64,000 nt of DNA from Mya arenaria (taxonomy: Eukaryota; Mollusca; Bivalvia; Myida; Myidae), in contig NC_069130.1 of the NCBI RefSeq assembly GCF_026914265.1, forward strand, positions 13,171,886-13,235,885, read 5' to 3'. Below the pieces are notes generated by a model. It had not been told where the DNA came from. It worked only from the letters and a program-made list of their open reading frames with translations, and did no database searches. Below, in pieces: positions 26,701 through 59,583 of this stretch; position 1 is the first letter of the stretch; every line of letters starts with the position of its first letter. The position numbers and the translations under genes were made by a program.

Positions 26701-29700
26701 TCTAGTTAAATAAATATGGTTGTTGTTGACAGTAAACAGTTTGCCTTCTTCCCATTACCTGTATGCATATGAGAAGAAATCCAAATGAAAACCATAACAT
26801 TTTACATTGTTTTAAATGCAAAAGAGAGAGTGAGACTGGAAAGTAAGGGAATGGGGCTTAGGGGTTGAAGCAGGAATGTTAGCAAGAGAGAATACTGCTA
26901 GATTTTCAACACAAAATATAATTTCAATTAAAAATTAAAAGACATACAATACTTAACATGTTGAAAATTTGTATAATGAGACAAAGATCAGTCATAATAA
27001 AACAATATCCCGAAGCAATTAACAATAAATTATCAGACCACTGTTAGGAATGTCTACTAATCAGCCTAAGAGGCTTATAAGCACATGTTAGCACAGTGTG
27101 ATAATGTGTCAACATAGCAGTGGGGTATTGTATACAGGAGGTGGTGGCAGGCAAAACACACTGGTGTGGGACATTTGGGGAAATAGTGAAGTAGGGAAGA
27201 CAAACAATATAAATATGGTGTTGTTAATATACAATATATGGTGTACATGTCCAGTTAAATAGATATTGTTGTTGTTAAAAGTAAACATAATGCTTTTTGT
27301 AACTGTATATACTGCTAGGTTTTCAACACAAAACATGATTTCCATTAAAAATTCAATAACATGGGTACAATATTTGTTTTGAAAAAGTATTCCCTAATTT
27401 TTTTTATGTCATTCATTTGAGATTATAAGAGCCCTTGCAGTGATTCAGTTTAAAATCTACTTCCATACATCATCCCCTGTCCTCCCATATTTCACAACCA
27501 TGGGTCCTGAGGGAAAATCTGAGAGTCCCAAGCATTACTTTGTGCTCATACTTAAAAGAGAGCATCTCAAGGATTCTGATATACCGTATTTTTTATTTAG
27601 GGATAATGGGTCCCTTGGGGAAAAAAAGGGTTTAGGACTTCACATGCATAAATATATCACTGCCCTTAAAGTCTTAAATGCGTAAATGTGAAATAAATTA
27701 TACAAGAAGTTTGAAACAAAGAGTTTTAAAATAGATATTTTTCTCACTGTATTGAAAACAACATCAGGGAAATAAAATAATATTTCATTGAAAGACATAA
27801 AACATAACCCTTTTTTTTATCCCCTTTATCAATACCTTTGGATAATACGCATCTAATTTTGAGCGCTTGTAAAGATCGATGAAAGCCGAGATAAATCACT
27901 CTTCCTAGGAAGAAATCATGGAAAACGGACAAAAGCCCTCCCGGACAAAAGCCCTCCCGTCCAAAAATGACAAGGCGGACAAAAGCCCTCCCATGAAAAT
28001 GACAGGGCGGAAAATCATTGCTCACTGTGTCCTTTTTGACATGAGAAAGTACCCCTATTGGGGGCTTAAGACCACAACCTCTTGGGTGAGAGGCCGCCAC
28101 CTAAACCATTAGACCATTCTCACCTTTATGTGCCTCTTCCTGAGAGTGTTTTGTTATGAACAGAAATCGAGGGCTCTCCGGACAGAACGAGAGAGTCACC
28201 AGCTGCCAGACTACCAGAACCAGGGGGAAGGCTGAAAAAATGAAGTCATTTTTTGAAAATTCCTTCACCAATAATTCCTAGCTTAGTGCAAAATTGTTGT
28301 AATTGACTTTTTGAAAAATAGGCCCACACATATTGCTCAAAGAAAAATTTATGTCTCTAACCAATAAAAAATTGACATACTGTAAATAAGATCACTTTAT
28401 CTCTTAAATTTAGATGTTCACTGTATCTCTTAAAATTACAGTTTTTGTTGTATCATTGATGTAAAAAAAACATCAAATAATAGTCTTGTATATCTTTTTA
28501 TTATAAGATAACTTTTTATAATAAGAAACATACTAAATAAACAGATAATCATAAACAAGATAATGCTGCACAAAATATAATCTAGTCTTCTTGTTTCAAA
28601 AATGCCTACCAAAGGCATATTGCCACAAATCTGGTGTTCCAAGAACAGAGTCAAGGCCCATAATTGTGGAGACTAGAACGCCGAGGGTGATACATAGCTG
28701 GTTGAATGTCCCGCACAGGCCACGTAGGGAAATGGGGGAAATCTCAGACAAGTACATCGGTGCTATTCCTGTGTTGATACCTAAAATGTAATAAATATAT
28801 TCATATATATAACTGTTTAAATCTCCTACTCAATCACAGATGAGAATATCCAAACAATTGCATCGGAGCTGCAACTGTTGTGGTTCCTCATACATCAACA
28901 CAAACAATCACCAAGAGAATTTCCCGACGAAGGCATTGCGGGCTAGTCCCATGTTGATGAGTGAAATATACAAGCTATGTGTTTTTTTCTTTCTATTTGG
29001 TAAAGCATAATGTTATTTTTATTATTGTTATATTTACTAAAATGCAAATATCAATTTCTATATTTCACTGCATTAAGGGTCCCCGATTCACGATAAAAAT
29101 TTGTTTATTAAATCATACTAGTTTTAACGTTTTACATTGGATTAAATGCAATTAAATGTTTAATGATAAATATATGTGTTGACTCGACGTATTCTCTTAA
29201 TTACTTTTAACTAAATGCTTTAAGATTAACAGATTAGTGCAGTTTTGCTCTTGTTTTTGACAGTATGGTGTCAGGGTGGATTTTATCTGTAGCCCTAAAT
29301 TCTGTGATAACACAGAGAAATAAATTCATGCCAAATCTTGAATCTTATTAATGATTTGTCAATCATTTCTAGATTTATTTCTTGTGTATGTTTAGATACA
29401 ACACTTTACCAAACTTTAAACGTTTTAGGAAAGGACTTTCAAGTTGTTTACCATCTTCCAGTCCAATATATGGCCTTCCATACTTTGTTGCTTTCAATAA
29501 TAAAATATGTTTTAAAAAAAAATCTTTAATTGTTTAAACACAAAAGTATCTGATAAACCATGACTTTATGTAGATTTAGTTAAAAAAAAAAACATTAATT
29601 AAGTTTTGTGTTGCTTTTTTAAGCAAAGAAACAACTGAATATATATGACGGAATGAAAAATTAGTAATTTTTCAGTTAAAATATGCTAAATTTCTTCAAA

Positions 29701-32700
29701 GTGTTTTGATAAATGAATTTGTATTTCTTAACTGAATACAGAATTTTAATAGAAATTATTGATTTTTTTTCTTTTAGCTTTTATTCTTAGGTACAGCAAC
29801 AATACATACAGTAGGGGGGGGGGGGGGGGTGAATTATCTTCAAAGAGCATTTAAAAAAATGAATTAAATAGATCATATACTAAAGGCATTAATATTCTAA
29901 GTCATAAAAATAGTTATCTACATCATGTAAAACATTGTAAGATATTAAAAACATCAAGAAATCTACACTATCAATGTAGTATAAGGCCCTAAAATTTTCA
30001 AACATTTTTCAATCATAAAATATAATAAAAAACATGATTTCACTAAATGACAATGATTATAAAGCAATAGAATAATAATGACATCCTTTTTCTAATAATC
30101 AATACCACATTATTGTAAGTGTCAACTTTTTAAGCACCTGAATATTATCAGCCCATCAGCATTTGTGCCTAGGCAAAAAGTATGTTATCAATCTAGGCAT
30201 CTTGGTATAGAAAGGATATACTAATTATATATTAATTCCTACCTAGGTGGGTCCAATTAAGGGGCCACACTTTTAAACAGTGTAGGAAGTGACATAGATG
30301 ATACTGAACAGATAAGGCCAATAATTATTTAATATGATAGGTGTGAAACTTGGCCCCTGGCTTGATGCCACTGATAGTTATGGCCCCTAAATAGCAATTT
30401 AGGGGCCATGGACCAATGGAATCAACTGTTATGGGTAAACATTGTAGGATGTTGGTAATTATATGTTTTAGGGTCCTCATATGTAAATTATTGAGGAATC
30501 ACAGAGCTGAAACTTGGTATAAAGTTTCAGCCTTATCAGTGGTCCTCATCAGATAGTGATTGAACTTGATACCAAACACATCTCTCTAGCAATATTAGCA
30601 AATATATATTACAAACATTGATCATTTCTGATTATTATAAGATTATCTTGTTTATGATTATCTGTAAATGTATGATCAATAATTCACATTTTGTGTAATT
30701 TTTCATAAGTTAAAAAGTGCACAAGTGCTAGGGTTGGAGTTTGAACATTTGCCATTTGCAGTTTGTGTTAACGGTAACAAAAATTGTTGAATTTCACAAA
30801 TGATTGGACATATACCAGGGAAATACTAGATAAAAAAGGAACAGCAGAAAAAATTGCCATCATTTTGGACATAAAAGTGGCAAATACACACAGTAGTGGA
30901 AAACCAGTGACACATAAACAAGTGATCAAATACCCTAAACAGGAAGCACATTTCACAGATGGAGTTAGTCCACAACAGGGAATACACAGGAGCTGGTCAG
31001 AGAGGATGGCCTGACATGGGTAGACTTGGTTACTATGGTAACCAGGCAGGGAGTGACCATCAGGATGAACTGACCGCTGCAGCCAGATTGTACAGACCTG
31101 GCAATCAGACACACTCATCTATGCCTGCTGGATACACTGAAGGTATGGATTTTTAAGATGATTTGTTCAATTTACAACCTCATAGTAATGGTATATCCTT
31201 GATTATAACTCTTAAAGCTTTTTTTATTTGAGTTTTACAATTTTAAATCATTAAATGTTATTTTAATTGAAATGTTCTGGATACAAATAGGTTTTCTTGT
31301 ATTTTATGCATTTTTTTAATACATTCACCATAATAAACTTACAAGAACTACAAAATTAATGTTTTCAAAATAACTGATTTCTAATTTCTCTTTATTTATC
31401 TTTAACCATTATAGTTTTATTTAGTAATGCAATGATTTCAAAGTCAATAATGATATATTTTAAATACTCTGAAGGTCTTTTTTACAATTATTTTCATTTT
31501 TTGATTTCTTATGTTAATGGTAACAACATTTAAAATAGTGATTTCAAAACCTTATGTTAAAGGAAAAATAAAAAATCCTTAGTGTATTTTGAAACACAAG
31601 GATTTTTTTATTATTATTATTATTAATATTTACGTATTATTTATACAAGAACTTAATTTTCTATATTTCAAATTCAAAATTCAGTCTTTAAATTTTGTGG
31701 TTACCAATATTTTCTACATTTGATTCATTTTTAGAAACTTTACCCATGACAATTCTATCATTCTTCTAAAATTTAATAAAACACTGTTTTTGCATAGAAT
31801 TTTTATGAGTTTTATAATCTCCCATTTCACAAAAGAAAAACTGTAATCACAAAAAATGTAACTGTTATATATCTAACAACTCTGAAACTTCATTTTTGGA
31901 ATCATTTTGGAAAATGTTTTACTAACAATAAGGTAGAATGAATATAAAATCAAATTCAAATTTTGGTTGTGCCATCTAATTTGTCATTCAAATTTTTTTA
32001 ATAAAATAATGTTTCTTTTCAGGTTGGAACCTCTACAATCAGTTTGCAAGTCAGCCCAGCAAAGCCATGTTTCCAAGCACATTTGCTCCTACGGCAGTAA
32101 ACCTTTCCACTGGGGGCAATCCTGCATACAACTTTCCCTCCAACCCACCTGACGAAGATGATGACAACCAGGGGGGTAGTCATAGCAACCGTAACAGCCT
32201 CGACTTTGAAGTTGGTTCCCTTTTCAAGCAGGAGCCTACCAAGGTTGACCGCTACTCTGTCTCGCCTGTGATGGGAACTGCGCATTCTTCATCAGTGTCA
32301 CAGATCACTCCTCCAAACCAGTCTATGAGTTCTGCTATTTCACCGATAATGAGAACCAGTCAGAATATGAACTCTTCAATCTCCCCTGTGATGGTAACCA
32401 CTCAGGCACAAAATGGCTCCTTGTCTGACTCCAGCAAATACCCAAAACTTGAGAACAGCTACCATCTACTCACCAATGAAATGCAAGACTCTTTGAAATA
32501 TCATGAAGAGAAACTATCGAGGGATTATGAAGCTATGAGATCAAGCTATGACAAATCTGAGATGGATTTTAACCCAAATATAAAGCATGAAATGAACAAT
32601 TATGACATCAACCAGCATAATATGAACAGTATGAATCACTCTCCTGAGCCCAGTAAGTCACCTGAGGGCTCTGATTACCAGTTCAACACATCTCCTGACT

Positions 32701-35700
32701 ACGGGCGTGCCAAAGATGAGCTCTCTCTATCTGCCTTTCTGCCAACACACGACTCTCCAGTAATGCCAAAGTTTCCTCCACAGTTTGGCAATGACTTTCC
32801 CAGTCTTGGTGATAACAAACTGTCAGCATCCAAACATGAAGAGGAGAGCCCACAAGACAACAAAGACACAAGCGATAAACCGAAGACAACCAAGGACGGT
32901 CGTGAGTGTGTTAACTGTGGAGCTACGTCTACACCCCTGTGGCGCAGAGACCCTAATGGACACTTCTTGTGTAACGCATGTGGATTGTATGCTAAAATGA
33001 ATGGAACAAACCGACCTCTGACAAAACCAAAGAAGAAATCGACAGCAGGGAAACAGTCTGGTATCACCTGTACTAACTGTTCTTCAACAACGACAACTCT
33101 CTGGCGACGTAACGCAGCTGGACAGACAGTCTGCAATGCCTGTGGCTTATACTACAAACTTCACAAGACTGACCGCCCTCTGAAAATGAAGAAAGATGGA
33201 ATTCAGACCAGAAACAGGAAGATGTCAATGAAAGGCAAGAAGAACAAGAAAATGAACCTCACAGTTTCGGATGCAGATATCTTCAAGAACAACCTGATCC
33301 CAAGCTTCCATCACCAGAACTACAACCAGACCTATCATCCATCTCTCTCCAACTACATGAGCCCAATGGAGCAGGGGTATGCCAACATGCGAGATGCAGC
33401 ATACATGAACAGCCAGTACATTCCCAACGCCCATGTTACGACGCCATCAGCAAGCTCCCCTATCAACCAAAGTATCTACAATTACACTCTCAACAACTTC
33501 AGCTCTTCTCTACAGTCCAGTTTTTCCCCAGTGACCAGTATGGGTGGAGCCGCAATGTCGGGGTATTCGAATGGACTCATGCAAGGAATGACCTTTCCTT
33601 CATCAAACATGCTCAGCTCAGCTTTAGCTCATGGTTAGAAAGGAGTGACATTGTGAATAGATAATAGGTTTATAAATAACTGTACAGACATGTAATATAT
33701 AATCTGATAGCAAAAATGTATGAATTCCACACAGTTATTATTGTGAAATAATATATGAAATAATGGTTATAATGTGATAAAGAAATGGTATTAATTCCAC
33801 ATAGTTATACATATTTTTAAATAATATATGAAAAAATGGTTATTTAAGTGTTAAGTTAAAATATAATGGTGCAACATGTTTTGTGTGACAATGGGAGTTA
33901 TTTGCTGATGAAATATTATTATAATGGATTACCCAAAATCTGTTGTTTTTTTAAAAACAACAAAATAAACATAATCAGCTATGTTTATACCTAAGTTCTT
34001 GTATATCATTTATGCAAAATTATATGATAAGAATATCATTTTTGAAAGAATTTTACATTTTTATCACTTACTGGTGTGTGGTGTGTATCTTGTTTTTGAT
34101 AAACTTACAATAACGCATGTATTAAAACAATTTCAAATATTTCTTGTATATGTTTTTAAATGTTATTACTATTTATTATTTATGAATATTTGACACTTAA
34201 GTACATTGATTGTATAAACAGTAGAAATATGATAAATGTTTGCCTTGCAATAAATATTGTTAAAAATCAAGACTTTCTTATTTGTGTGAAAACTTAAGTT
34301 TCTGATTTTATGTATAATTATATATATATATAAATACACATGTATCTTATTTTACATGTAAAATACTGAGATTTAAGCTCACTTGTATATATTATTTAAA
34401 AATGATGCTTACACAGAACGTTTAGGTTTAAGTCGGAAACACAGACATACTTTAAGAGCCATCACAGGATGTGATATGGGCCCCCAATGTTAACATTTAT
34501 GATAGGAGCAATATATGTTAAGTAAACTGGGCTTACTCATCCAATATGGGTCAGCAGTAAAATATTGCACTTATATTATCACGAACATTTTCTCTGAGAT
34601 ATTTCATTTGTATCAAAAAATTATCTTAAGTACCGGTAAACTGACCACGTATTAAATTTAAAGGGGCTCACTCTTGTTTTTAGGCAAATTTTATTTTTCA
34701 TATTAATGCATCTGAAAATACTAATATTATTGGGTTATATTTACTCTGTGACACCGGAAGAACAAAAAATATACAATATAAGGATTAGGAAAATACTTCT
34801 GTTTTTGTGGTGTGTGAATCACCTCACTTAAGTCAAGAAAAAATAAGCCACTAGGCAACAAGGGCTAATATACAACAGTTGATGGATATTTTGACCTTTT
34901 AAGAATACATTGATAACATCACATGATAATGTCAATCAATCAATCACACAACAACCAATCGGTGAATCCCATTAAAAATGGTGTTCAAATTTGTGGTCTT
35001 CAAAGATGATATTTGTGCAAATTTCAACATTTGCTGAAGGGTTCCACCTGTCAGTGTCCAAGATTTAACACTCCAAATGATTTGCCCCACATTGCTAACA
35101 AAACCAGTAGCCATTTTGACATTCCAAAGTTTAACTACATTTGTCATGTGTAACTTTAACTAAAGATATGAAGTAAAAAAAGTTATTTTTTAGTAGCAGA
35201 CTCTAGGTGCACAATTATACAAGCAGACTCACACCAATACTATCATCTAAGTGAAGGTGACTCAAATACTCTTTTAGATATTTTAAGTGTAATACTACAT
35301 TCCATACTCTTATAATGCCTAATTTTAATAATAGCAAGGGCTTAACATGGCAACAAACAAAACCCCTGATACACAAGTTCACATGTAGACAAACATCACA
35401 TGTACACCAACATCACAGTGAAGATTTATGACTCTAACTCAAATACCCTATTAGATAAGTGTTATACTTAATTCCATGCTCTTATGCCTAATTTTAATTA
35501 TAACAAGGGCCATAACCTTATTGGGCACAGCTACAAAAAAAGCCCCTGATGCACAAGTTCACATGCTTGTTTACATTCCTTAAAAGTTTCACGACTTAGT
35601 CAAGGGCCATAACTCTACCCTTATTGAAGGATAAACACTATAAAACCCAGGTACACACCTCCACATGCTGGTTAACATTTCTGCAAAGTCTCATGACTCT

Positions 35701-38700
35701 TGCTCTCATACTTTTGGAGATATGCCCAATTGCAAGCACAATATGCCATGTTTTCAAATCAAGGTCCATAAATCTGCACTTAATGGGTGTAAATTTCTGA
35801 GACAATGCCATGGCTGATACACATTTGGAGATAAGCGTGTCACAAGATTGCATTATATTTATGCTATTTTAAAACTACATCAAGAGTCATAACTCTGCAA
35901 TTACTGGGTTCATCAACAAACCAAACCAAAACCCCTGGTGCACATATTTCTCGTTCTGCTTAACATTAAGCTTTACTATTCAGGCTATTATTTTCATGCA
36001 GATATGCGTAACACAAGGTTTCGTGATGGACAGACACAATGATGAACGGACAGGAGTAGATCCATTCTTTCAATGGAGGCATATAAATTAAAGATCTCAT
36101 CTTGTGTACAAGTTCACAATGGCATCTTGTCAATTCCAAGCAAAAGTAACATCAATTTTTCTTAAACATAGGGAATATCAAGGGTGTTAACTTCAAGACT
36201 ATAAATCAAAGAGTTATGGTTTTAAACAAGAGCTGTCACACAGAAAAATGAAGGGATGCAATTTTGTAAAAATGGGTCCAAGAGTTATAATTCTTGTTAA
36301 ACCCACACTATCACATTTAAGCATCTGTCTTAAACAAATAATTATGTATATCAAGGGAGACAATTAGGGAACAATGGGCCACATAATTATTTTTCCTGCA
36401 AAGTGCATGAAGTCAAGGGAGGCAATTTGTTAACAATGAGTTATAGCTTTAATACTACACACATGTTAACATTGCCATAATAATAAGAGGGAGCCTTGTA
36501 ATGTAAACAAACTTATAAAGTATTTCATATCTTCAAAAGTCTTAAAGTTATTTAGAACAAGAGCGTCAACTGTGGCAAAAAACGCCTGTCCTATCTTTAG
36601 GACACCAAGTTTGGTGGAAAGTGGTTGTACATAAAGCCGTATTTAGACAGAGGACATTGCATATACAGTTTTTGCCATTTCAAGGGTTATTACTCTGAAT
36701 GATGCAACATGGCTGTTAACATGATCCAGTTATTCTGTCCAAACAGAATCTGACACAATTTGTAGGTGATTGGATAGAGGCTTCTTATGTCATTAATTGA
36801 ACAAAACCAGAATTCCAGGTAATTTCTTTAATTAAAGGGCAGTAACTCTCGAGTGGCTTGAGCAATATGGCTGTTTTTCAAACTTGTATGAGATATTAAG
36901 CCCATCACTCTGAACAGATTTGGTGATGATTGCACAAATGCTTCTTAAGATATTGATCAGACAACGTACTGATCAGACCAGCCGTCTTAAATTATAGTAT
37001 ACCTAAATTACAACTATCACTGCTAAAGTGAACCAATATAAAATTTTATTGAAGAAAAGTTTCTAGCATCTACTTTGATACTTTTGAAACTTTTGCAAAC
37101 TAAACAAGAGAGTGGTTTATGCCATCTGCCCATTTCAATTTTTAATCTTTATGAAGCCACTCTTAATCATGTTAATGCTGTTTTGAACTTCTTATTTTAA
37201 TCTGTGTCTTTATATGACTGAAAATTTAAGTTTGTATATAATATATATATGTTTAAGCTCTTGATGATTCTCTTAGATCTTCATTCAATTTTGAATTAAA
37301 CAATTGTTTGTGCTTAATTTAAAGATGTGTAAAAAATATGTAAAAAATATTTATAATCCAACCTCTTGTTAAGCTATACAACAGCAAAATCCTTAGATTT
37401 TAATAAAATGTTTTAATTCTGATTGCAAAGTTGGTTTCTGCTGTATTATTTTATACATCAACTAACATTGAGTTATACATTAATTAATGTTGGTTTGATC
37501 AGTTTTCTTTCTGCTGTCATTGTTATTTTTAACCAAAATTGGATGGTGGATGGGAAGCGATTTACATTTAATGGAATTCAACCCCATATCCCATTCATAG
37601 AATTATTCTATGTTGAAAGTTTTATGCCTCAATGAAGCTGAATTTTCTCAAGTTCATCTGCTTTGGAAAACCCCCTTACTTCTGAACCATAATTAAGTAT
37701 CTGAAGGCATTAGTAGGTTATGTCATTTGACTCATTTATAATTTTATGTTTTTATCTATATTGTGATAAACATGACAAGACAAATAAAACTTCATTATCA
37801 ATATATTGCATGCCCTTATAATTAAAACAAAAATTCAATCATAAAGTATAATAAAACAAGATTATAATAAAAGACCAGTGATTATGAAGCAATAAAACAA
37901 TAATGACATCCTTTTCTTATAATCAATACCACATTATTGTAAGTGTCAACTTTTTAAGCACCTGAATTTTTTTAGCCCATCAGCATTTTGTGCAAAGGCA
38001 AAAAGTATGTTATCAATCTAGCCATCTTAGAATAGAAAGGATATGCTAATTAGTTATTAATTAATACCTAGGTGGGTCCAATTCAGCATCCACACTTTTA
38101 AAAATGGAGGAAGGGACTAGTATGATATTGAAAAGATAAGGTCAATAATTATAGGTGTGAAACTTGGCCCCTGGCTTGATGTCAATGATACGTAGGTACC
38201 CTAAATGGCAATTTAGGGGCCAAGGACCAATTGAAATAATGATGATGGGTAAACATTGTGGGATGTTAGTAATTATATGTTTTAGGGTCCTCATATGTAA
38301 TTAGTGAGGATGCTGGTGTAGAAATCACAGAGCTGAAACTTGGTATAAAGCTTCAGCCTTATCAGTGGTCCTCATCAGATTTTGATCAAACTTGATACCA
38401 AACACATCTCTCTAGCAATACTTGCAAATATATTACTAACATTGATCATTTCTGATTATAAAATAAGATTATCTTGCTTATAAATATCTGTCATTGTACA
38501 GACAATAATTCACATGTTGTGTCTTATTTTCATGAATAAAAAAGTGCACAAGTGCACAAGGTTGGAATTACAAAACAAATGAATTTGCAGTTGTGTAAAT
38601 GATAACGAAATTTGTTGGAAATTCACGAAGTTCTTTGAATTTACCAGAGATATACTGAACAACAAGTGGACAAATAAACAGGATAAGCATAAACCAGAAA

Positions 38701-41700
38701 AAGTTGACATTATAAACACAGGGAAGATACAAGTGGACAGTACACACAGTGACATAATACCAGAGTGACAAATAAACTAGTGACCAAATATACAGGAATT
38801 TCCAGACACGAAACACCTTACACAGATGGAGTTAGTCCACAACAGGGAATACACAGGCGCTGGTCAAAGAGGAGGGCCTGACATGGGTAGACTTGGTTAC
38901 TATGGTAACCAGGCAGGGAGTGACCATCAGGATGAACTGACCGCTGCTGCCAGATTGTACAGACCTGGCAATCAGACGCACTCATCTATGCCTGCTGGAT
39001 TCACTGAAGGTATGGACTTGTGTTTTTCTTCTATCTTAAAGGTCTATCAGTAAAATTTACAAAAATGATGACAAGTTATTAATGCTCAGTATAATTGTGT
39101 GCTGGTGTATTCTCTTTCTTCTTTTTTTATTTTAAATATTATTTTTACATTATTATGACTTCATTTTAATGGAAAATTTTGCATACCAAAATGTTTGCTG
39201 CTACATTTTTGTTTTATTTTCTCCCTCTTTATTTAATTTTCTTAAAAAATGCAATGACTTCAAAATCAAATGATGTGTTCTGGATTATCTTCAAACATAT
39301 ATGTATTTAAATCTATTTCAGTATTTTTTGTCTTTTTCTTCTTTTTACACCAAAAATAAACACCAATATCTATTTTATTGATAAAAATATATTATCTAAT
39401 GAAATATCATGATTACATTAGTGTTTCCCTTTTTCTTAGCATTCATTGTTATTAAATTAATTATAAAATATCAGTGTTCTTCAACATTTTCTACTAATTC
39501 ATATTCTAAAATCTAAAAACAACATCAATTCTTTTACAATCAGTGTTTTAATTTGTTTAAGAAATAAAATTTTCTTCATTTGATCAATTTTGAGAAATTC
39601 CTGTAATATTTTACCTTGTCAAATGAAAATGATGAATTTTGGCATATATTTATTTTCCTGTTTCTGAGAAGAAAAAAACAATTTGTACTTTTCAACATTT
39701 ATACATGATAATTATAATATTGATATAGAGTTCTCTTTATATTTCATATTGCAATATGTTTTTTATTCATTTATTTAACAGAAGGTAGATCAATTTAATT
39801 TCAATTTTGGTTGTACCATTTCATTTTTTTTTATACAATATTCTTATCAAACTTGATCAATGTATTTTCAGGTTGGAGCCTCTATAACCAGTTTGCAAGC
39901 CAGTCCAGCAAAGCCATGTTTCAAAGCACATTCACCCCTGCAGGAGCTAACCTTTCTACTGGTGTCCAGCTCCCATACCACTCTCCCCTGACCCCACCTG
40001 ATGAGGATGACACCACCCTGGGGAGTAGCCATAGTAACCGAAACAGCCTTGATTTTGAAGTTGGTTCCCTTTACAAACAGGAGGCTGCCAAAGTTGACCG
40101 CTACTCTGTCTCGCCTGTGATGGGAACCAGACATCCTTCATCAGTGTCGCAGATTACTCCTCCAAACCAGTCTATGAGTTCTGCTATTTCACCGATAATG
40201 AGAACCAGTCATAATATGAACTCTTCAATCTCCCCTGTGATGGTAACCACTCAGGCACAAAATGGCTCCTTGTCTGATTCGAACAATTACCTCAAACTTG
40301 AGAACAGCTACAATCTACTGGCCAGTGAAATGCGAGACTCTTTAAAATATCAGGAAGAGAAACTTTCTAGGAATTATGAAGCCATGAGATCAAGTTATGA
40401 CAAATCTGAGATGGATTTTAACACTAATCAAAACAGTGACATGAACAATTACACCAACCAGCTGAATATGTACAGTAAGAATTACTCTCCTGAACCCAGT
40501 AAATCACCCGAGGGCTCTGAATGCCAGTTCAACACATCTCCTGACTACGGGCGTGCCAAAGATGAGCTCTCTCTATCTGCCTTTCTGCCCACACACGACT
40601 CTCCTGTAATGCCAAAGTTTCCTCCACAGTTTGGCAATGACTTCCCAAGTCTTGGTGAACACAAGTTGTCCGCATCCAAACATGAGGAGGTGAACCCAAA
40701 AGGCAACAAAGACACAAGCGATAAACCGAAGACAACCAAGGATGGTCGGGAATGTGTTAACTGTGCGGCTACCTCAACACCCCTATGGCGCAGGGACCAG
40801 AATGGACACTTCTTATGTAACGCATGTGGATTGTATGCTAAAATGAATGGAACAAACCGACCTCTGACAAAACCAAAGAAGAAATCAACCACAGGGAAAC
40901 AGTCTGGTATCACCTGCAGTAACTGTTCTTCAACTTCGACAACTCTCTGGCGACGTAACGCAGCTGGACAGACAGTCTGTAATGCCTGTGGCTTATACTA
41001 CAAACTTCACAAAACTGACCGCCCTCTGAAGATGAAGAAAGATGGAATTCAGACCAGAAACAGGAAGATGTCAATGAAAGGCAAGAAGAACAAGAAAATG
41101 AACCTCACAGTCTCTGATGCTGATATCTTCAAGAACAACCTGATTGCAGGTTTCCATCACCAGAACTACAACCAGACCTATCATCCATCTCTCTCCAACT
41201 ACATGAGTCCGATGGACCAGGGGTATGCCAACATGCGAGATGCGGCATACATGAACAGCCAGTACATTCCAAATGCCCATGTTACAACGCCATCAGCAAG
41301 CTCCCCTATCAACCAAAGTATCTACAATTACACTCTCAACAACTTCAGCTCTTCTCTACAGTCCAGTTTTTCCCCGGTGACCAGTATGGGTGGAGCTGCA
41401 ATGTCAGGGTATTCAAATGGACTCATGCAAGGAATGACCTTTCCTTCATCAAATATGCTCAGCTCAGGTTTAGCTTAAGGTTAAAAGGAGTAAAAATGTG
41501 ATAAGATTATAGTTTTGTAAACAATTGAGTGTACAGTCATATGTGATAATCAAATTGTACAAATTCCCAGGCACATAGTTATGCAAATAGAAACTTAAAA
41601 TGTAAAAATAATTATTATTTAAGTGTATTAGAAGATTATTGTGAAAGGAATGACATTTTGAAATATTTATAATTTACTAATTAATATACAAAGTTTTCTG

Positions 41701-44700
41701 TTATGACACTGTAATCATGATTTTTCATAAAAACGCTCCCGTATATTATAAATGAAGGATTCTTTAATGAGAATGTAAATTATGAATCAAATTGACATTC
41801 ATATCACTAACTGATGTGACATGTTCATCTTAGATAAACTTACAATAATGCATGTATTGAACTGAATTAAAAAAATATATTTGTATATAAATGTTATTTG
41901 TATATAAATGATACAGCTATTGATTATTATTATAACATTTTGTTGCATGAAATAATAAATGCCAATGATTAAAGTGCATTGATTTATATATTTGTTAAGA
42001 GTAGATATTTTTTAAATGTTTACTTAGCAAAAAATACAGTTATCAATCAAGACTTTCTTATTTGCATGACATTTTAGAGGCAAATCTAAGTACCGTATCC
42101 CTAGTTCTTTAATGATTATAGATGAAGTGTTTTATGATTCTAAAGGGTTTTATGAAGCTAAGCCATCAGCATATCACATAGACTCTAGAAAAGGAAAATG
42201 GCAAAACTACAACTCATAAAAAAAGCAGAGAAAAAATATTCAAACAAGAGCTGTTATAGTATGTGACGAATGCCCCCAAATGTGACATTGACCTACGAAC
42301 AAGGTCAGTACATGAAAAGTTGATCTTGCCTTTATGTGTCAAATACATATGGCAAGTTATTATAAATTGCCTCTGAACATAAAAAATACCACCCATACTT
42401 GACAACCTACACTGTTATGTCCTTATATTCAGAATTCCCTTGTGAATAAACACTTAGTGTATCTTTCACCTTAGAGGTAGGGACATGGGTCTTGCACACG
42501 ACACGTCGTCTTCGTATGTGGAACACATGTAGCAAGTGATTTTAAAATCTGTCCATACAAGGGAAAGTAACAGCCCGGACACGACAAACTATACTCTATG
42601 TCCTTATATGCAGCACTCCATTGTGAATAAACACTAAGTGTGACCTTGACCTTTGAGGCAGGGACACGGGTCTTGCACGCCACACGTCGTCTTGGTATGT
42701 GGAACACATGTGGCAAGTTATTTTTAAATCTGTCCATAAAAGGGAAAGTTACAGCCCGGACACGACAACCTATACTCTATGTCCTTATATGCAGCACTCC
42801 ATTGTGAATAAACACTATGTGTGACCTTGACCTTTGAGGCAGGGACATGGGTCTTGCACGCGAAACGTCGTCTTGGTATGTGGAACACATGTGGCAAGTT
42901 ATTTTAAGATCTGTCCAAACAAGAGAAAGTAACAGCGCGGACACGACAACCTATACTCTATGTCCTTATATGCAGCACTCCATTGTGAATAAACACTAAG
43001 TGTGACCTTGACCTTTGAGGTAGGGACACGGGTCTTAAACACGACACGTCGTCTTGGTATGTGGAACACATGTGGCAAGTTATCTTAAAATCTGTCCATA
43101 CAAGGGAAAGTTACAGCCTTGACACGACAACCTATACTCTATGTCCTTATATGCAGTACTCCATTATAAATAAACACTAAGTGTGACCTTGACCTTTAAG
43201 GTAGGGACACGGGTCTTGCACACGACACGTCGTCTTGGTATGTGGAACACATGTGGCAAGTTATTTTAAAATCTGTCCATACAAGAGAAAGTTACAGCCC
43301 GGACACGACAAACTATACTCTATGTCCTTATATGCAGCACTCCATTGTGAATAAACACTAAGTGTGACCTTGACCTTTGAGGTAGGGACACAGGTCTTGC
43401 AGGCGACATGTCCTCTTGGTATGTGGAACACATGTGGCAAGTTATTTTAAAATCTGTCCATACAAGGGAAAGTTACAGCCCGGACACGACAACCTATACT
43501 CTATGTCCTTATATGCAGCACTCCATTGTAAATAAACACTAAGTGTGACCTTGACCTTTGAGGCAGGGACACGGGTCTTGCACGCCACACGTCGTCTTGG
43601 TATGTGGAACACATGTAGCAAGTTATTTTAAAATCTGTCCATACAAGAGAAAGTAACATCCCGGACACGACAACCTATACTCTATGCCCTTATATGCAGC
43701 ACTCCATTGTGAATAAACACTAAGTGTGACCTTGACCTTTGAGGTAGGGACACGGGTCTTGCACGTGGCACGTTGTCTTGGTATGTGGAACACATTTGGC
43801 AAGTTATTTTAAAATCTGTCCATTCAAGGGAAAGTTACAGCCCGGACACGACAAACTATACTCTATGTCCTTATATGCAGCACTCCATTGTAAATAAACA
43901 CTAAGTGTGACCTTGACCTTTGAGGTAGGGACACGGGTCTTGCACGCGTCACGTCGTCTTGGTATGTGGAACACATGTGGCAAGTTATTTTAAAATCTGT
44001 CCATACAAAAGAAAGTTACAGCCCGGACACGACAACCTATACTCTATGTCCTTATATGCAGCACTCCATTGTGAATAAACACTAAATGTGACCTTGACCT
44101 TTGAGGTAGGGACACGGGTCTTGCAGGCGACACGTCGTCTTGGTAAGTGGAACACATGTGGCAAGTTATTTTAAGATCTGTCCATACAAGGGAAAGTTAC
44201 AGCCCGGACACGACAACCTATACTCTATGACCTTATATGCAGCACTCCATTGTGAATAAACACTAAGTGTGACCTTGACCTTTGAGGTAGGAAAACGGGT
44301 CTTGCACACGACACGTCGTCTTGGTATGTGGTACACATGTGGCAAGTTATTTTAAAATCTGACCATATAAGAGAAAGTTACAGCCCGGACACAGCAACCT
44401 ATACTCATGTCCTTATATGCAGCACTCCATTGTGAATAAACACTAAGTGTGACCTTGACCTTTGAGGTAGGGACACGAGTCTTGCACGCCACAGGTCGTC
44501 TTGGTATGTGGAACACATGTGGCAAGTTATTTTAAAATCCGTCCATACAAGGGAAAGTTACAGAGCCGGCCGGACGGACGGACAGATGGACAGAAGGTGC
44601 GATTTTAATATGCCCACCTTCGGGGGCATAAAAATTCCAAGCTCCTCAAACTGTAACAAAGCATGGAGACTGAAACATCCCGAGAATTAGGATTAACATG

Positions 44701-47700
44701 GCACTCGAACACAAAACCTCACATAAACACAATGCATGGAGACTAAAACATCCCGAAGAATTACAATATACATGGCACTCGAACACAAAACCTCACATTA
44801 ACACAATGCATGGAGACTAAAACATCCTGAAGAATTACAATATACATGGCACTCGAACACAAAACCTCACATTAATGTAATGCATGGAGACTAAAACATC
44901 CTGAAGAATTACAATATACATGGCACTCGAACACAAAACCTCACATTAACACAATGCATGGAGACTAAAACATCCTGAAGAATTACAATATACATGGCAC
45001 TCGAACACAAAACCTCACATTAACACAATGCATGGAGACTAAAATATCCCGAAGAATTACAATATACATGGCACTCGAACACAAAAAAACTTATAATCAC
45101 TGTAAACTTGGTTTCTGATGACTTAATAAATATTTCAGACAAAATGACTATAAAGCCCACTCAATCATGTCAAATACTTAAAACACATCTAAGATGAAGA
45201 GAGGACAGGTTCTTTTTTTAAATAAACAACCACATGACCAACTAGTTTCAAACTATTCCAAGATTTCATTGAGGCATTCTGATTAAGTTTCATGAAAATT
45301 AGAGCAGATGTATTGCCTCTAGAGTGTTCCCAAGATTTCTGCAAGATATGACCTAATGACCTAGTTTTTGACCCATATGACACACTTTTAAAACGCAGTC
45401 GAATTTAACCCAAGAGAACATTCTGACCATGTTTGAACTTAATCAGACCAATCACCACCATAAAATAGTTTCAGACAAGATTTTTGAAAGATTTGACCTA
45501 GTGGCCTAATTTCACATGTGACCCAGTTTGAATCCTGTCCAAGAGTTCAACAAGGAAAACATTCTGATCCAGTTTCATGAATATTAGACCATAAATATTG
45601 CCTCTAATGTGTTTCAGATTTTTTTTAAAGATTTGACCTAGTGACCTAATTTTTGACCCCATGTGCCCCACTTTTACAAGCGGTCCATATTTCATCAAGG
45701 GGTACATCATGACCAAGTCTGAACATAATCCGACCAATCGTTTCCATTCCGGACAAAATAATTCTAAGATTTGACCTTGTGATCTAATTTTCGATCATAT
45801 TTGACCCAGTTTTAAATTAGTCCAAGATTTCATCAAGGAAAACATTCTGATTAAGTTTTATGAATATTTGACCATGTATAATGCCTCTAGCATGTTCCAA
45901 AGATTTTTCTAAGATTTGACCTACTGACCTAGTTTTTGAACCCATGTGACCCACTTTAAGTGGTCTATATTTCATCAAGGGGTACATCAAGACCAATTTT
46001 GAACATAACTTGACCAATCATTCCCATGATAAGGTTCTGTACAATATTTAAGATTTGAACTAGTGACCTAAGTTTTGATCATATAGTCACAGTTTTATTT
46101 ACGACAAAGAGTTCATCAAGGAAAACATTCTGATTAAGTTTAATGGATATATTTGACCATGTATAATGTCTCTAGTATGTTCCAAAGAATTTTCTAACAT
46201 TTGACCTAGTGACCTGGTTTTTGACCCCAAGTGAGCCACTTTTAAAAAGGGGTCGAGATTAGATCAAGGACCAAGTTTGAACATTTTCTGATCAATGCCT
46301 ACCAAGATATGGTACTGGACGGACGGAAGGACAGACGGACGACAGACAGACAACGCCAAAACAATATCCCCCTCCTGAAATCTTCGATTCGGCAGGGGAT
46401 AATAACTCTGTCTTATTAGACCCAACTTGTCAAGTCAGTATTAAAACTAACATAGAAGATACGATTAGTAATAACACAGAATACCATGTTAATCTTTGAC
46501 CAGCCCAATTGCGTTCATATCCCCGATAATGACATCAACCCCACAATTAATTCCTTATATTTAAACCAATAGTTAATTATTTCATTCAAGAATTGTTAAA
46601 AAATACTTCATTTCATTTAGGATAACCTTTTAGTAATCCTTTCTTACCCATTCTGTAAATAGAACGACCCGACTGTAACCAGAAACATTACATATTTTTC
46701 AAATGACGTCACAATAAGGCGGGAAAAGATCCACCACTTGAAATCTCTTTTAAACGTAAAATTGAAACCCTTTTGGCAAAAATATGTTTAAAATATAATA
46801 ACTTAACACTTTCTAAAATGTTGATGTATATTTTATGGGACCTGCTGACACAATACAAACAATAACAAGATCAATAGTTTTCATGTATATTATTATGCGA
46901 TGAATTGCTATCCGAACATATCCAAAGAGGTTGTGTTCATCAATTGATAACACAATTGCCGGAAGGCAGTTCATTTAAGGTTTTAAAATCTTTGAATATT
47001 CACAAAAAAAATAAACTAGAACTCTTACTTTTTGCCGACTTTGCTAAAGCTTTTGACAGTTTAAACCACAGTGTTATCCTTGTATGCATACAATCATTGA
47101 AGTCAGGACCGTTTTTAGTTTTAAAATGGGTAGCTCTGATCTACAACAATATATGGAATCTGATAATTAATAATGGACATATATCAGTCATTTGGACTAG
47201 AACAAGGTGCTCAGCAGGGTTGCCCACTATCGGCCACATTGTTTATAATTTGCTTACAAACACTATCTAACTATACACTAAACAATGACATAACAGGAAT
47301 AAAAAATAATGGCAAAATGATAAAGCAAACTTTTGTTGCATATGTTTCAACATTTTTCAATAATTGCAACAAAAGTCCTTTGAAACACTGGTGCAAACCC
47401 TTGAATTGTTCTCTAAATGCGCAGGCCTAAACTTGAACACCAATCAATTAATAATTATGTGGATTTCTTTTAAAAATATGAATAAAATAAACCACACAAA
47501 CAAGTAAATGTTATTATCTTCAACATTTCGGCGTAAGGCCTTCATCAGTGGCTATAAACAAAACATCTATTTTGTTTTCCTACCATTACAATTTTTTTTA
47601 AAGAATTTAGAAACATATTAACACAATGGCAACACTGAAAACTGACACTAATGGGAAAAGTAACAGTTATTAAATTGTTTGCTTTATCTAAGCTCTTTTT

Positions 47701-50700
47701 CCATTTACTGTACTAGCTAATCCAACTAAACAAATGATAGATGATACTTAATGTGGGATGGGAAACCAGATGAAATAAAAAAAATATCCATTACCAAAAC
47801 TATGAACAAGATGGACTTTAGCTGACAGATAAAGAATCAGTTTTAAATTCAATTAAAGCATTATGGATAAAAAGATACATGGACCCGTCAAATAATGGAG
47901 ACTGGAATGTGTTCTTTCATAGAACTACTTTTACTAGTATCAGATATTGATTAAACAGTTATAAATTATATTCCACCAGACAGAACTTTCCTAAATGATG
48001 TACTCAGGTCTTGGTTAAAAATAAGAACCACATATTAAGAAGTCAAGTCAAAAACAAACGTAAGTAAAACAATAATTAGGGATAATAAAGTGATAGAACA
48101 AAATTAAACCAAGCCTCAAAAAGTTACAGATAAGATGAAAGAATCAAGGCAGACAAACCAATTTCTATATTCAATACAACAAAACAAAATATCAACCCTT
48201 CATTAGAAACTAAATGGCAACTAACATTACCAAACATAGAAATATCAATTTTAAAAATATTGGTTAGAAAAATATATATAATACAATTATATATTATATG
48301 ATATTGATATGATTCCCACACTCTTAAATGGAATGTATTGAAATTATGATTTTAAATAACTACACTATTGGAGTGTATAGGAAACCATGATAGTATGTTT
48401 GTAAATGGTACTTTTCTCTTTACACAAACATACACTAAAAACAAAAAAAAAGAAAGGGATCGTGTGTGTGCGTGTTTGTGTATTTTGATTTTCAGAATAA
48501 AAATGATACAACATAGACATGTTCTGATTTATACTGTGATAGATATTGTTTGTTATTCAGTAATTATTATATCTAAGTTCAAAATATATGAGAGAATAAA
48601 GCATATCCCATAGATTCTAAGAATTTTTATTTCTGGTTTTCTGTAGGTTTCTACTGCATTAGTTTGTAGTTTAACTTGAGTTATATGTGGGTTTGATTAA
48701 TTTTTCTTTCTTTTGTAATTGTTATTTATTTACAAAATCGGAGGGTGGATTGGAAGCAATTGACAAATAATGGAGATCAACAAAATTTCCCATACATAAA
48801 ATTATTCTGTGTTGAAAGTTTATTGTCTGACATTGTTTTAAAAAAAATGAAGGTGAATTTTCTCAAGCCCATCTGCTTTGGAAAAAGCCCATACTTCTGA
48901 ACCATAATTAAGTATCTGTAGACACTAATAATCTTTTTCATTTAAATTATTAACAGTTATCTATTTTTTGTAAAACAAGGCAAGACAATAAAATACATCT
49001 ATAAACCTTCATTATCAATGTATTACAGGCCCTAATAATTCAATCAAAGATTCAAAAATAAAAGATAATAAAACATTATTTTAATAAAAGACTGTGATTA
49101 TGAAGCAATAAAACAATAATGACATCCTTTTCTTATAATCAATACCACATTATTGTAAGTGTCAACTTTTTAAGCACTTAAATATTATCAGCCCATCAGC
49201 ATTTGTGCAAAGGCAAAAAGAATGTTTTAAATCTAGCCATCTTGGTATAGAAAGGATATGCTAATTAGACATTAATTAATACCTAGGTGGGTCCAATTAA
49301 GGGGGCACACTTTTAAGCAGTGTAGGAAGCAACTAGGATGATACTAAACAGATAAGGCCAATAATTATAGGTGTGAAACTTGGCCCCTGGCTTGATGTCA
49401 GTGATAGTAGTGGCCCCCTAAATAGCAATTGGGTAAACATTGTGGGATGTTGGTAATTATATATTTTAGGGTCCTCATATGCAATTATTGAGGAAACTGG
49501 TGTAGAAATCACAGAGCTGAAACTTGGTATAAAACTTCAGCCTTATCAGTGGTCCTCATCAGATTTTGATCAAACTTGATACCAAACACATCTCTCTAGC
49601 AATACTTGCAAATATATATTACAAACATTGATCATTTCTGATTATAAAATAAGATTATCTTGCTCATGTATATCTGTAAATGAACAGACAATAATTCACA
49701 TGTTATGTTTGACTGCCATAAGTGGAAAAAAATGCATTTATGCTAGAGTTGCATTTAAAAAGTTTAAAACCAGAGATATACTTAACAACAGGAGGACAAA
49801 TAAACAGGATTAGCATTCAACAGTAAAAAGAGGACAATACACACAGGGAAGAAGTACCAGAGTGCCAAAATACCGAAAATTTCCAGACAGGAAGCACATT
49901 TCACATATGGAGTTAGTCCACAACAGGGAATACACAGGAGCTGGTCAAAGAGAAGGGCCTGACATGGGTAGACTTGGTTACTATGGTAACCAGGCAGGGA
50001 ATGACCATCAGGATGAACTGACCAGTGCTGCCAGATTGTACAGACCAGGCAATCAGACACATTTATCTATGCCTGCTGGATACACTGAAGGTATGGACTT
50101 GTGTTTTAAAAATATATATATTTATCTGTTTGATTAATTTACTCAATAAATAATAGGTTATTGACACTCTGAATATGTTTGCTGTTCATTTCTGGTGTTT
50201 TATTTTACCATTTTAAAGGATTGAATTATTTCAAATATATTATTTCAATTGAAAACTTCTGGATACAAAAAGGTTTAGTTATATTTTTCAGTGTTTCTTT
50301 TCTTCAATTTTTTGTTACCCTTTTATAATAATAAAGTAATATACTGATTTCAAAACAAATGATAAATTCTGAAAACTTGTTTTTTGTCTGGTTATTCAAA
50401 ATTTACCATTTAATCTTTGAGAAGAAAATGATTGATTCCAAAATAATCTATGAAAAGGCATGCACTTGAATTTTCTGACTTTATATTGGGTTTTAACCAT
50501 TTAATTTAAGTATTCTTTTAATAAGAATTTAAATCATGCCTTCAGTGAGAAATTTCTGTAATGTTCCTATCATATGTTAGAAATCAAATAAAAATGCTGT
50601 TGTTGGTTTTTGCATATCATTTTTTATGAGTTTATATTCCATTTACTGTAAAAGAAAATCCAACTGCAAAATAACTTGTTATTTTCTATATTGATATTAC

Positions 50701-53700
50701 AACTTTAAAACACCTTATACATGATTTCATATAGGATCATAAATTAAATATAATATCAGAAATAAAAATATAAATTTTGCAATAAAATAAATTCATGTCA
50801 ATGATATCTATATAGATCTCTCTTTTTATATTTCATTTTGAAATTTGCATTACTAACGATTTAAGAGAAGGTTTTCAAATTTTTGTTTGTACAGTTTTCA
50901 ATTCTTAATACAATATTTTTATAATGAATTTTCAGGTTGGAGCCTCTATAACCAGTTTGCAAGCCAGTCCAGCAAAGCCATGTTTCAAAGCGCATTCACC
51001 CCTGCAGGAGTCAACCCTTCTACTGGTGCCCAGCTTCCATACCACTTCCCCCTGACCCCACCTGATAAGGATGACACCACCCCAGGGAGTGGCCATAGTA
51101 ACCGAAACAGCCTTGATTTTGAAGTTGGTGACCTTTTCAAACAGGAGGCTACCAAAGTTGACCGATACTCTGTCTCGCCTGTGATGGGAACCAGACATCC
51201 TTCATCAGTGTCGCAGATTACTCCTCCAAACCAGTCTATGAGTTCTGCTATTTCACCGATAATGAGAACCAGTCATAATATGAACTCTTCAATCTCCCCT
51301 GTGATGGTAACCACTCAGGCACAAAATGGCTCCTTGTCTGATTCGAACAATTACCTCAAACTTGAGAACAGCTACAATCTACTGACCAGTGAAATGCGAG
51401 ACTCTTTAAAATATCAGGAAGAGAAACTATCGAGGGATTATGATGCTATGAGATCAAGCTATGACAAATCTGAGATGGATTTTAACACTAATCAAAACAG
51501 TGACATGAATAATTATGCCAACCAGCTGAATATGTACAGAATGAATCACTCTCCTGAACCCAGTAAATCACCCGAGGGCTCTGAATGCCAGTTCAATTCA
51601 TCTCCAGACTACGGTCGCGCCAAAGATGAGCTCTGTCTATCTGCCTTTCTGCCAACACACGACTCTCCAGTAATGCCGAAATTCCCACCTCATTTTGGCA
51701 ATGACTTCTCAAGTCTAACTGATAACAAACAGATGGAAGAAGCAAACCCACAAGCCAGCAAGGATGTGAGCACTATTCCCAAGGCTACCAAGGATGATCG
51801 TGAGTGTGTTAATTGTGCTGCTACGTCTACTCCACTGTGGCGCAGGGACCCAAACGGACACTTCTTGTGTAATGCATGTGGATTGTATGCTAAAACAAAT
51901 GGATCCAACCGCCCTCTGACAAAAGCAAAGAAGAAATCAACCACAGGGAAACAGTCCGGTATCACCTGCAGTAACTGTTCTTCAACTAAGACAACCCTAT
52001 GGCGACGTAACGCAGCTGGACAGACAGTCTGTAATGCCTGTGGCTTATACTTCAAACTTCATAAAACTGACCGCCCTCTGAAGATGAAGAAAGATGGAAT
52101 TCAGACCCGTAATAGGAAGATGTCAATGAAAGGCAAGAAGAACAAGAAAATGAACCTCACAGTCTCTGATGCCGATATCTTCAAGAACAACCTGATCCCG
52201 AGCTTCCATCACCAGAACTACAACCAGACCTATCATCCATCTCTCTCCAACTACATGAGCCCAATGGAGCAGGGGTATGCTAACATGCGAGATGCAGCAT
52301 ACATGAACAGCCAATACATGCCCAACGCCCATGTTACGACACCATCAGCCAGCTCTCCTATCAATCATAGTCTCTACAATTCCACTCTCAACAACTTCAG
52401 CTCTTCTCTACAATCCAGTTTTTCCCCAGTGACCAGTATGGGTGGAGCTGCAATGACATCGTATTCGAATGGACTCATGCAAGGAATGACCTTTCCTTCA
52501 TCAAATATGCTCCATTCAGCATTAGCTCATAGTTAAAACTAGTGAAAATGTGAATAGAATACAGTATTGTTAATAACTGTACAGTCATATGTGATAATGA
52601 AATTATTCTAATTCCATAGCTATGTAAATTGTGACGTAATATATGAACATATTGTTTATCAAAGGATTATCTAATGAGAATGTAACTAATGAATTAAATT
52701 TACATTTATATCATTGACTGATTTGAAATGTTCATCTTGTCTTGGATAAACTTACAATAATGCATGTATTAAAATGATTTAGAATCTCTTTTCTATTTGT
52801 ATTTAAATTATATATTTATTATTTTTGAATATTCTGTTTAATGAAATAATGAATGACAATGATTAAAGTGCATTGTTTCAAATATTTGTTAAGAAAAAAT
52901 AATTAAATGTTTAACTTGCAATTAAAATTATGTTACCAACCAAGACTTTCTTATTTGCATGGCAATTGAGGGGCATAACTAATAGTTCTTAAGCAGCTAG
53001 ACAACAGCTCATGACCATTCATTTCAATTTACCCGAAATATTCCAGTTCTCCTAGATTCTAATCTAGATGTAGCGTTTGATCATGATGGAACAGCAGATG
53101 TTTTCCCATCAATGTAGTCAGCCCTGAACATCATTTGAACCAATTTACCGAAGTTTATTCAACAAGATTTGTTATTTTTATGTCAAAACTATGCAAACTT
53201 CCCGAACAACCAGCGTACACTTCCTAACCTTTACTCGGTACTCAAGGCGTAAAATGCAATTTTAAACATGTAAACCAAGTTTCGTGATGATATTTTAAAA
53301 GAATTATATACAATGTTAAAGTTTATGCAAGACAATGGGCCGATTGTTCAGAACTTTGTTGAAGTAAACAACATTGTTAATGACACCGTGCCAACTTTCC
53401 ATTCTTTACTCCTCTGGAAGATTAATGGATGTGATCTGCAGTATTTCTTACAAGATTTGGGAAAACTGTTTTAGCAGTACATGTTTTTTATTTAAGTAAA
53501 TTCATATATTTATTTTATGTTTTAAAGTTAACAACAATCATCATATTGTTAACTTTAACCAAGTTCTGAACAATCAGCTTGATGACAATAATTCTGACTA
53601 TGAAACCAAGGGTATAACAATACTGTAACCGTTTTCTACGATATAGACATATACATTGTTCTTGAGTTAGTCTGATTACCTGCATTAATACCAATCAGTA

Positions 53701-58833: not shown

Positions 58834-58905
58834 TCCCAAATTGTCTAGTGGTTAGGATTCCGCGCTCTCACCGCGGCGGCCGGGGTTCGATTCCCCGCTT
58901 GGGAA
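58834..58905 (+). tRNA. tRNA-Glu (CTC), unit 1
   Basis: 72-nt cloverleaf with anticodon CTC in the loop CTCTCAC. It starts TCCCAAATT instead of TCCCAAGTG, so position 7 no longer pairs with C66. Function is less certain than in units 3-6. Confidence 0.85.
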
Positions 58906-59074
58906 AGTGTTTTGCTTTTCCCGCTTCACTCTTTTATACTCTGGGCCTAAGGATACACACTAAGTGTACTGTCGGTTTCTTGGTGCGTTTCTTTGACGGC
59001 CTGTCCAGCGAAATTTAGACTTCATTAGTCAAGAAACTATTTTCGAAATGCACAGGTAGTCAAAACGAATATTG

Positions 59075-59147
59075 CATCCCCGGCGGGATTCGAACCCGCG
59101 ACCTCTGGATTAGAAGTCCAGCGCGCTATCCACTGCGCTACGGGGAC
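59075..59147 (-). tRNA. tRNA-Arg (TCT), unit 1
   Basis: 73 nt; anticodon loop CTTCTAA, T arm GCGGGTTCGAATCCCGC, acceptor GTCCCCG with CGGGGAT (G1 against U72 is a wobble). Confidence 0.93.
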
Positions 59148-59365
59148 ATGAAAAATGGTGTCGCGTGCTTACTTAATAATTTGGTAAACCGTGTAAAGTG
59201 AATTGAAAGTACTTGTAAAAGTACAACTCGTAAACTATACTAAACATATTCGCGAATTCTGGAACTACCGATTTGAACGCCAGATGCCCAATGTTCAAAA
59301 CGATGTATACACAGACGTATACACTCCAGTTCCACAAATGCATGAACATACAATAAAAGGAAATG

Positions 59366-59437: not shown

Positions 59438-59583
59438 AGAATACAGTGTACGCTAGTTGGTATCACAAACATTGGTCAAAATCGACTTTCAGCTGTTAGT
59501 CATATATATATATATACCTATCCAATGGAGTTCTACTAATGTATGTATTATAGTGCATTGCCACGAGGGTGTACACTCATCTC

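Follow-up and report, generated by a model that had tools for sequence, protein, structure and literature searches.

Three GATA1/2/3-class genes nested antisense in an intron of a GLUT-type sugar transporter gene of Mya arenaria, a trio of probable RNA-derived origin

According to excerpts of the survey by Gillis (2008; PMC2383905), the usual protostome set of GATA genes consists of one GATA123 gene and three or four GATA456 genes, nematodes and the leech being excepted; nearly every protostome genome surveyed contains a single GATA123 gene, and the leech has 13 divergent GATA genes. The same excerpts describe a finger domain divided among three exons as the ancestral arrangement, present in all lophotrochozoan GATAs analysed. 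In this work we describe three GATA genes in a 64,000-nucleotide stretch of the genome of the clam Mya arenaria (contig NC_069130.1, here C9, positions 13171886-13235885; hereafter the window), which lie within the fourth coding intron of a sugar transporter gene of the GLUT/SLC2A family. We consider it probable that this trio stems from an RNA-derived GATA123 copy, inserted into a GLUT intron that was older than itself and later duplicated in tandem.

The host gene runs on the minus strand from 57654 to 14551 and comprises 12 coding exons and 536 codons, with GT..AG at the borders of 11 out of 11 introns. Its predicted protein matches the Pfam family Sugar_tr (expect value, E, 3.2e-129), and human GLUT1 (5eqg_A) aligns collinearly with exons 2-12 over residues 3-475 of the 495-residue query (E 2.7e-127). 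GLUT1 is its best match among solved structures, and GLUT3, GLUT4 and GLUT5 score lower. By these comparisons the host is a full-length sugar transporter related to GLUTs, and the rank of the structure matches by itself suggests a class I GLUT. The possibility of two partial GLUT genes flanking the cluster was ruled out, as the exons form a single full-length collinear transporter. The features of this gene are as follows, drawn from splice borders plus homology where no other basis is given.

57532 to 57654, minus strand: predicted coding exon 1 of 41 codons, which includes the start codon and ends in phase 0 (basis: ATG, open reading frame, GT splice donor)
55783 to 55881, minus strand: coding exon 2
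54395 to 54579, minus strand: coding exon 3
53680 to 53804, minus strand: coding exon 4, which ends GINA-G, phase 1
28781 to 53679, minus strand: coding intron 4, which contains the GATA trio (splice borders, phase)
28610 to 28780, minus strand: coding exon 5
28124 to 28231, minus strand: coding exon 6
22470 to 22558, minus strand: coding exon 7 (phase-constrained scan, homology)
19423 to 19521, minus strand: coding exon 8
17805 to 18017, minus strand: coding exon 9
17031 to 17112, minus strand: coding exon 10
16187 to 16314, minus strand: coding exon 11
14551 to 14739, minus strand: coding exon 12, including the stop codon

Intron 4 (53679..28781) has 24,899 bp and is in phase 1. Exon 4 (53804-53680) has the borders tttcag/gtaatc and exon 5 (28780-28610) ttttag/gtaggc, and they join as GCA G|GT ATC, which reads INAG|INTG; the in-phase junction expected in the original prediction, which was made from the sequence of the window, was thus recovered. 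Plus-strand models of three GATA genes lie inside this intron, at 30959-33638 (copy A), 38826-41478 (copy B) and 49907-52536 (copy C), so that the antisense position in intron 4 that had been proposed also holds in the predicted gene models from which nesting was judged. In these models each of the three GATA genes is complete, the host gene is intact, and all three fall inside the same intron. In another intron of the host, between exons 7 and 8, there is a tandem array of a 43-bp unit in 58.5 copies (19809-22337).

The three GATA genes share one architecture: a first coding exon of 184 nt, a phase-1 intron with GTATGG..TTTCAG borders (880, 862 and 845 nt in copies A, B and C), and a second exon of approx. 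1.6 kb that contains both zinc fingers. The encoded proteins have 599, 596 and 594 residues, with no internal stops.

30959 to 31142, plus strand: copy A, first coding exon (gene model)
32023 to 33638, plus strand: copy A, second coding exon, which contains the two zinc fingers (gene model, open frame, Pfam)
38826 to 39009, plus strand: copy B, first coding exon (gene model)
39872 to 41478, plus strand: copy B, second coding exon (gene model, open frame, genome finger matches)
49907 to 50090, plus strand: copy C, first coding exon (gene model)
50936 to 52536, plus strand: copy C, second coding exon (gene model, open frame, genome finger matches)

The genes belong to tandem repeated units of about 4-5 kb (approx. 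29909-34284, 37383-42089 and 48600-52982) whose flanks are partly collinear. Open frames of 542, 559 and 559 codons within DNA of 35% GC, together with the strong GATA matches, rule out chance open frames. Each copy encodes two type-IV fingers of the form CX2CX17CX2C, which gives six in-frame matches, and every ligand cysteine is retained in the three copies; in copy A, which the Pfam scan covered, PF00320 was detected in two stretches (E 1.5e-29). Copy A is identical to human GATA1 (3vd6) in 82 of 113 residues and to GATA3 (4hc7) in 83 of 110. The residues that we take to be the DNA contacts of the C-terminal finger (L17, R19, N29, L33 and L37 in the numbering of the chick GATA-1 finger) are the same in all copies, and in the N-terminal finger the histidine that follows CGLY is replaced by alanine in all three. 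At the position that, in our own matching of the numbering to the clam proteins, corresponds to human GATA1 G208, copies B and C have alanine, and copy A and the GATA123 gene located on contig C14 have glycine. Given that the human changes G208R and G208S weaken the binding of FOG1, as stated in an excerpt of PMC9600848, cofactor use may differ among the copies.

Two other elements were observed in the host intron: a tandem array between copies B and C (42401-44563; 12 copies of a 181-bp unit), and, upstream of copy C, a fragment resembling a reverse transcriptase (46878-47270) whose RVT_1 match (2.5e-4) falls under the Pfam cut-off.

A search of the whole genome (1.216 Gb, 18 contigs) yielded 16 GATA-family matches: the 6 fingers of the window, 2 at C14:6.63 Mb, 5 on C10 (3 at 45.75-45.79 Mb, 2 at 49.90 Mb) and 3 single, weaker ones on C13, C3 and C11, which were also looked at by tblastn. 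The C14 locus is a GATA123 gene of five coding exons and 465 residues, with its zinc-finger domain split among exons, and its finger residues equal those of human GATA3 at 104 of 110 positions, versus 83, 80 and 76 for copies A, B and C. In a tree of 10 rows and 115 columns, in which the reference rows are few and the stem of the trio is long, the trio forms a separate clade (100/100; stem length 0.34), and a 100/100 split sets the trio, the C14 gene, GATA1 and GATA3 apart from GATA4 and the C10 genes. On this phylogenetic basis the trio belongs to the GATA1/2/3 class, as had been predicted, and membership of GATA456 was ruled out. The GATA set of this genome, as read from these matches, looks like that of a typical protostome to which three further genes of the GATA123 class have been added. 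The expectation of one GATA1/2/3-class gene outside vertebrates, stated in the original prediction, agrees for protostomes with the Gillis excerpts, nematodes and the leech being set apart. One of the C10 loci (C10:49895041-49897350) is a very divergent GATA456-like gene, with an end branch of 0.41, that lies apart from the loci at 45.75-45.79 Mb.

The finger domain of the trio has no introns. In the C14 gene this domain is interrupted at RSSA|EGREC (phase 1), KRRL|SAARR (phase 0) and KLHN|VSRPL (phase 0). None of the three interruptions is found in any of the window copies, where the aligned places read through without gaps; hence the trio has 0 of the 3 introns of the ancestral finger domain, a structural trait that is no strict requirement of the class. 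The remaining GATA1-6-type loci are also split over exons, i.e., C10:45.787-45.791 Mb and C10:49.895-49.897 Mb, both of which were taken as single genes, and the readable part of C10:45.75 Mb. Moreover, the trio is on C9 and the ordinary GATA123 gene on C14. The precise loss of three introns and the new chromosomal place point to a copy made through RNA.

The intron that received this copy was most likely already there. Three GLUT paralogues of the clam were examined (C3:51.81, C9:26.47 and C9:2.85 Mb), and in all of them the downstream exon starts at the identical phase-1 site; both borders were seen for the C3 paralogue, whose intron has approx. 180 bp, and the downstream border alone for the two on C9. 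Since the paralogues share this intron site, the host intron is most likely older than the GATA insertion. Another GLUT-like gene (C12:27403974-27405149) has one open frame over query residues 115-519 with 35% identity, and is perhaps an intron-poor transporter.

The divergence among the copies indicates that their products have been maintained. The pairwise ratio of nonsynonymous to synonymous change (dN/dS) for the whole coding sequence is 0.20 (A-B), 0.22 (A-C) and 0.21 (B-C); the codon-bootstrap limits all fall within 0.14-0.29. For the separate regions, the ratio is 0.08-0.10 in the finger domain, 0.06-0.15 in the tail, 0.27-0.30 in the part of exon 2 that precedes the fingers, and 0.13-0.40 in exon 1, where changes are few. 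These ratios indicate that the three copies are under purifying selection, and they rule out pseudogenes; likewise, a synonymous divergence (dS) of 0.25-0.34 among the copies rules out haplotype duplicates. With their intact frames, this range of dN/dS and conserved upstream sequence, all three copies look functional. The sites that group two copies versus the third are strongly clustered along the gene: among 240 informative sites, 138 adjacent pairs have equal labels versus 86.3 expected (0 of 5000 permutations as high), with copies B and C agreeing most at about codons 51-250, copies A and B at 301-400, and the remainder mixed. This pattern suggests gene conversion among the copies, in which case the triplication would be at least as old as dS indicates. 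The GATA introns align poorly among the copies (50-59% identity).

Conserved non-coding sequence precedes each copy. Its approximate limits, obtained from the alignment of the copies, are:

29914 to 30690, plus strand: conserved region upstream of copy A
37752 to 38560, plus strand: conserved region upstream of copy B
48957 to 49720, plus strand: conserved region upstream of copy C

In the 1 kb before the ATG, identity over aligned sites is 0.83-0.87, i.e., 0.14-0.19 changes per site, which is below the dS among the copies. In bins of 100 bp with gaps counted as differences, the segments from 900 to 600 and from 500 to 300 bp before the ATG are 0.74-0.94 identical, that from 600 to 500 bp 0.57-0.81, and the final 300 bp 0.25-0.73. 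A 331-bp piece of this sequence was found in three places genome-wide, all of them in the trio, with a search that skips simple repeats. Five WGATAR/YTATCW sites and one TATAAA occupy identical alignment positions in all the copies, and 22 core-permuted motifs used as a control gave a mean of 1.27 conserved occurrences and a maximum of 3. Compared with dinucleotide shuffles, WGATAR is enriched upstream of copy A (10 versus 3.6, p 0.001) and of copy C (8 versus 3.0, p 0.013); no enrichment versus shuffles was found in the three GATA introns (p 0.135-0.882), and two further stretches of the host intron gave p values of 0.45 and 0.056, the latter near the line. The conserved upstream sequence suggests independent promoters for the GATA copies, and auto- or cross-regulation through the upstream sites is a reasonable, if unproved, proposition.

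From these results, a probable course of events can be proposed. A retrocopy would have been made from a GATA123 gene like that of C14, presumably by reverse transcription, and would have landed antisense in a phase-1 intron that an SLC2A gene of the GLUT type already possessed. Its 5' region with GATA sites would have been either gained there or retained. The nested copy would then have been duplicated twice in tandem, and the resulting genes, retained by purifying selection, seem to exchange sequence through gene conversion. Their products are probably ordinary two-finger transcription factors; binding to WGATAR would be expected to occur via the C-terminal finger, given that its ligands and basic tail are intact. 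Transcription of each gene would be driven by its own upstream region, and the GATA sites there may allow the genes to regulate themselves or each other.

Several observations weigh against an RNA-derived origin or against parts of this scheme. The trio groups next to GATA1 (weakly, 82/81) instead of next to the C14 gene, and does so on its long stem of 0.34. One phase-1 coding intron remains in each copy, and the first intron of the C14 gene is also in phase 1. In alignments of exon 1 to the part of the C14 protein that precedes the fingers, 914 of 1000 shuffles score as high. Synonymous change between the trio and the C14 gene is saturated. Finally, the WGATAR count upstream of copy B (5 versus 3.2 in dinucleotide shuffles, p 0.214) is not significant. 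Because of the saturation the insertion is not datable, and a poly-A remnant or a target-site duplication would be unlikely to survive.

The remaining intron may be new, since a pairing of GW[NS]LY in the window copies with GWGLY in C14, itself weak, would place it within an exon of the C14 gene. Alternatively, it may correspond to the first intron of that gene, which is in the same phase. When the pre-finger part is aligned to C14 as a whole, 12 of 1000 shuffles score as high, and 86 of 1000 for its exon-2 part; for a sub-stretch chosen post hoc the figure is 0 of 1000, and a profile comparison of the N-terminal parts of the trio and C14 gave a weak match of 11 columns. The N-terminal half thus aligns too weakly to decide between a new and a kept intron. 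A copy of a dispersed element was ruled out as its source: in a search that skips very common words, the intron of copy A had no relative in the genome beyond itself and 51 bp of the copy C intron.

A kept intron is central to the alternative that survives best, which we nevertheless regard as unlikely. Introns can be lost with a 3' bias through recombination with complementary DNA (cDNA), and a GATA123 duplicate that had entered the GLUT intron at the DNA level, introns included, could have lost the three downstream ones in this way and kept the first. This would explain why it is the first coding intron that remains, in the phase of the first C14 intron, and why the lost introns are all downstream. 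However, it requires two distinct events, a move and a loss, the GW[NS]LY/GWGLY pairing, weak as it is, speaks against it, and the copy A intron and the 331-bp upstream piece were unmatched on C14 in genome searches in which the C14 introns were not queried against the window.

A different proposal, compatible with an RNA-derived origin, concerns what the nesting does: antisense interference between the GLUT pre-mRNA and the GATA genes would couple sugar uptake to GATA output. The geometry makes host-GATA transcriptional interference possible, as transcription of GLUT has to run antisense through each of the three GATA genes, and nested genes are reported to cause interference in human genes in an excerpt of PMC3192792. 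However, the nested TipE genes of insects correlate poorly with the expression of their host, according to an excerpt of PMC3240667, and the independent promoters suggested here would also be at odds with such coupling, which we consider doubtful. The same low degree of credence is given to a broader version, in which the trio would be a self-sustaining GATA island, i.e., an old RNA-derived lineage with GATA-rich upstream regions, gene conversion, split cofactor use and a host antisense transcript that tunes it to the transporter.

A simple tandem triplication, within the transporter intron, of the bivalve's GATA123 gene itself is very improbable. The local triplication of the original prediction stands insofar as there are three tandem units of approx. 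4-5 kb with partly collinear flanks, of the GATA123 class; nevertheless, it is incomplete as an account, given that a GATA123 gene with the ancestral exons is retained on C14, far closer to human GATA3 than the trio, and that the window copies lack the three finger-domain introns and form a separate, fast-evolving clade. Misplacement of the cluster between host exons 4 and 5 during assembly, which can occur in regions as rich in tandem repeats as this one, is scarcely credible, because the window contains no N, the exon phase is exact, all host exons are in order and the copies are too different for haplotype duplicates.

Two other regions of the window were noted. At 58834-63920 there are about seven repeats of approx. 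750 bp with transfer RNA (tRNA) genes for tRNA-Glu(CTC), tRNA-Arg(TCT, once TCG) and tRNA-Asp(GTC), where ARAGORN predicts 19 genes and Rfam gives 21 matches. At the opposite end, plus-strand exons at 382-2183, 4271-4462, 5204-5428 and 8701-8931 probably form a gene for a protein with a long part rich in Gln/Ser/Gly/Tyr and in RGG, together with zinc fingers; zf-met was detected in two tested pieces, and the remaining pieces were judged by eye.

The trio is a natural case in which three questions can be tested: can a retrocopy serve to rebuild a developmental master regulator, by what route does it obtain regulatory sequence, and does nesting couple a regulator to a metabolic gene? Should other bivalves have the trio too, it would count among the rare genomic changes that can be used as phylogenetic markers. 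The titles and abstract starts of the open-licence PMC literature that was searched gave no RNA-derived GATA123 trio within a GLUT gene; each of its elements has precedents, namely nested retrogene clusters, antisense nesting and linked GATA triplets, and it is their combination that was not encountered.

Compared with the known GATA1/2/3 factors, the clam proteins share the two GATA fingers, the basic tail and the position on the GATA123 side of the tree, and differ in the long stem, the alanine after CGLY in the N-terminal finger, the one-exon finger domain and an N-terminal half that can hardly be aligned. The TipE cluster of insects likewise has related genes nested together in an intron of a host to which they are unrelated, one of them a retrogene with a single coding exon; however, the families are different, and the TipE retrogene adjoins its multi-exon relatives, whereas in the clam the finger-domain introns are absent from every nested copy and a different contig carries the parent type. 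The LRRTM genes in alpha-catenin introns (PMC3933685, in excerpt) resemble this locus in their opposite-strand nesting within a large intron after translocation, but each host contains one LRRTM gene that multiplied together with it, in contrast with three tandem genes in one host. Finally, the linked GATA456 triplets of arthropods and Lottia, described in excerpts of PMC2383905, also place three GATA genes of a protostome within tens of kb; those genes are GATA456 and, in lophotrochozoans, have the ancestral structure of the finger domain, whereas the clam trio is GATA123 and lacks it.

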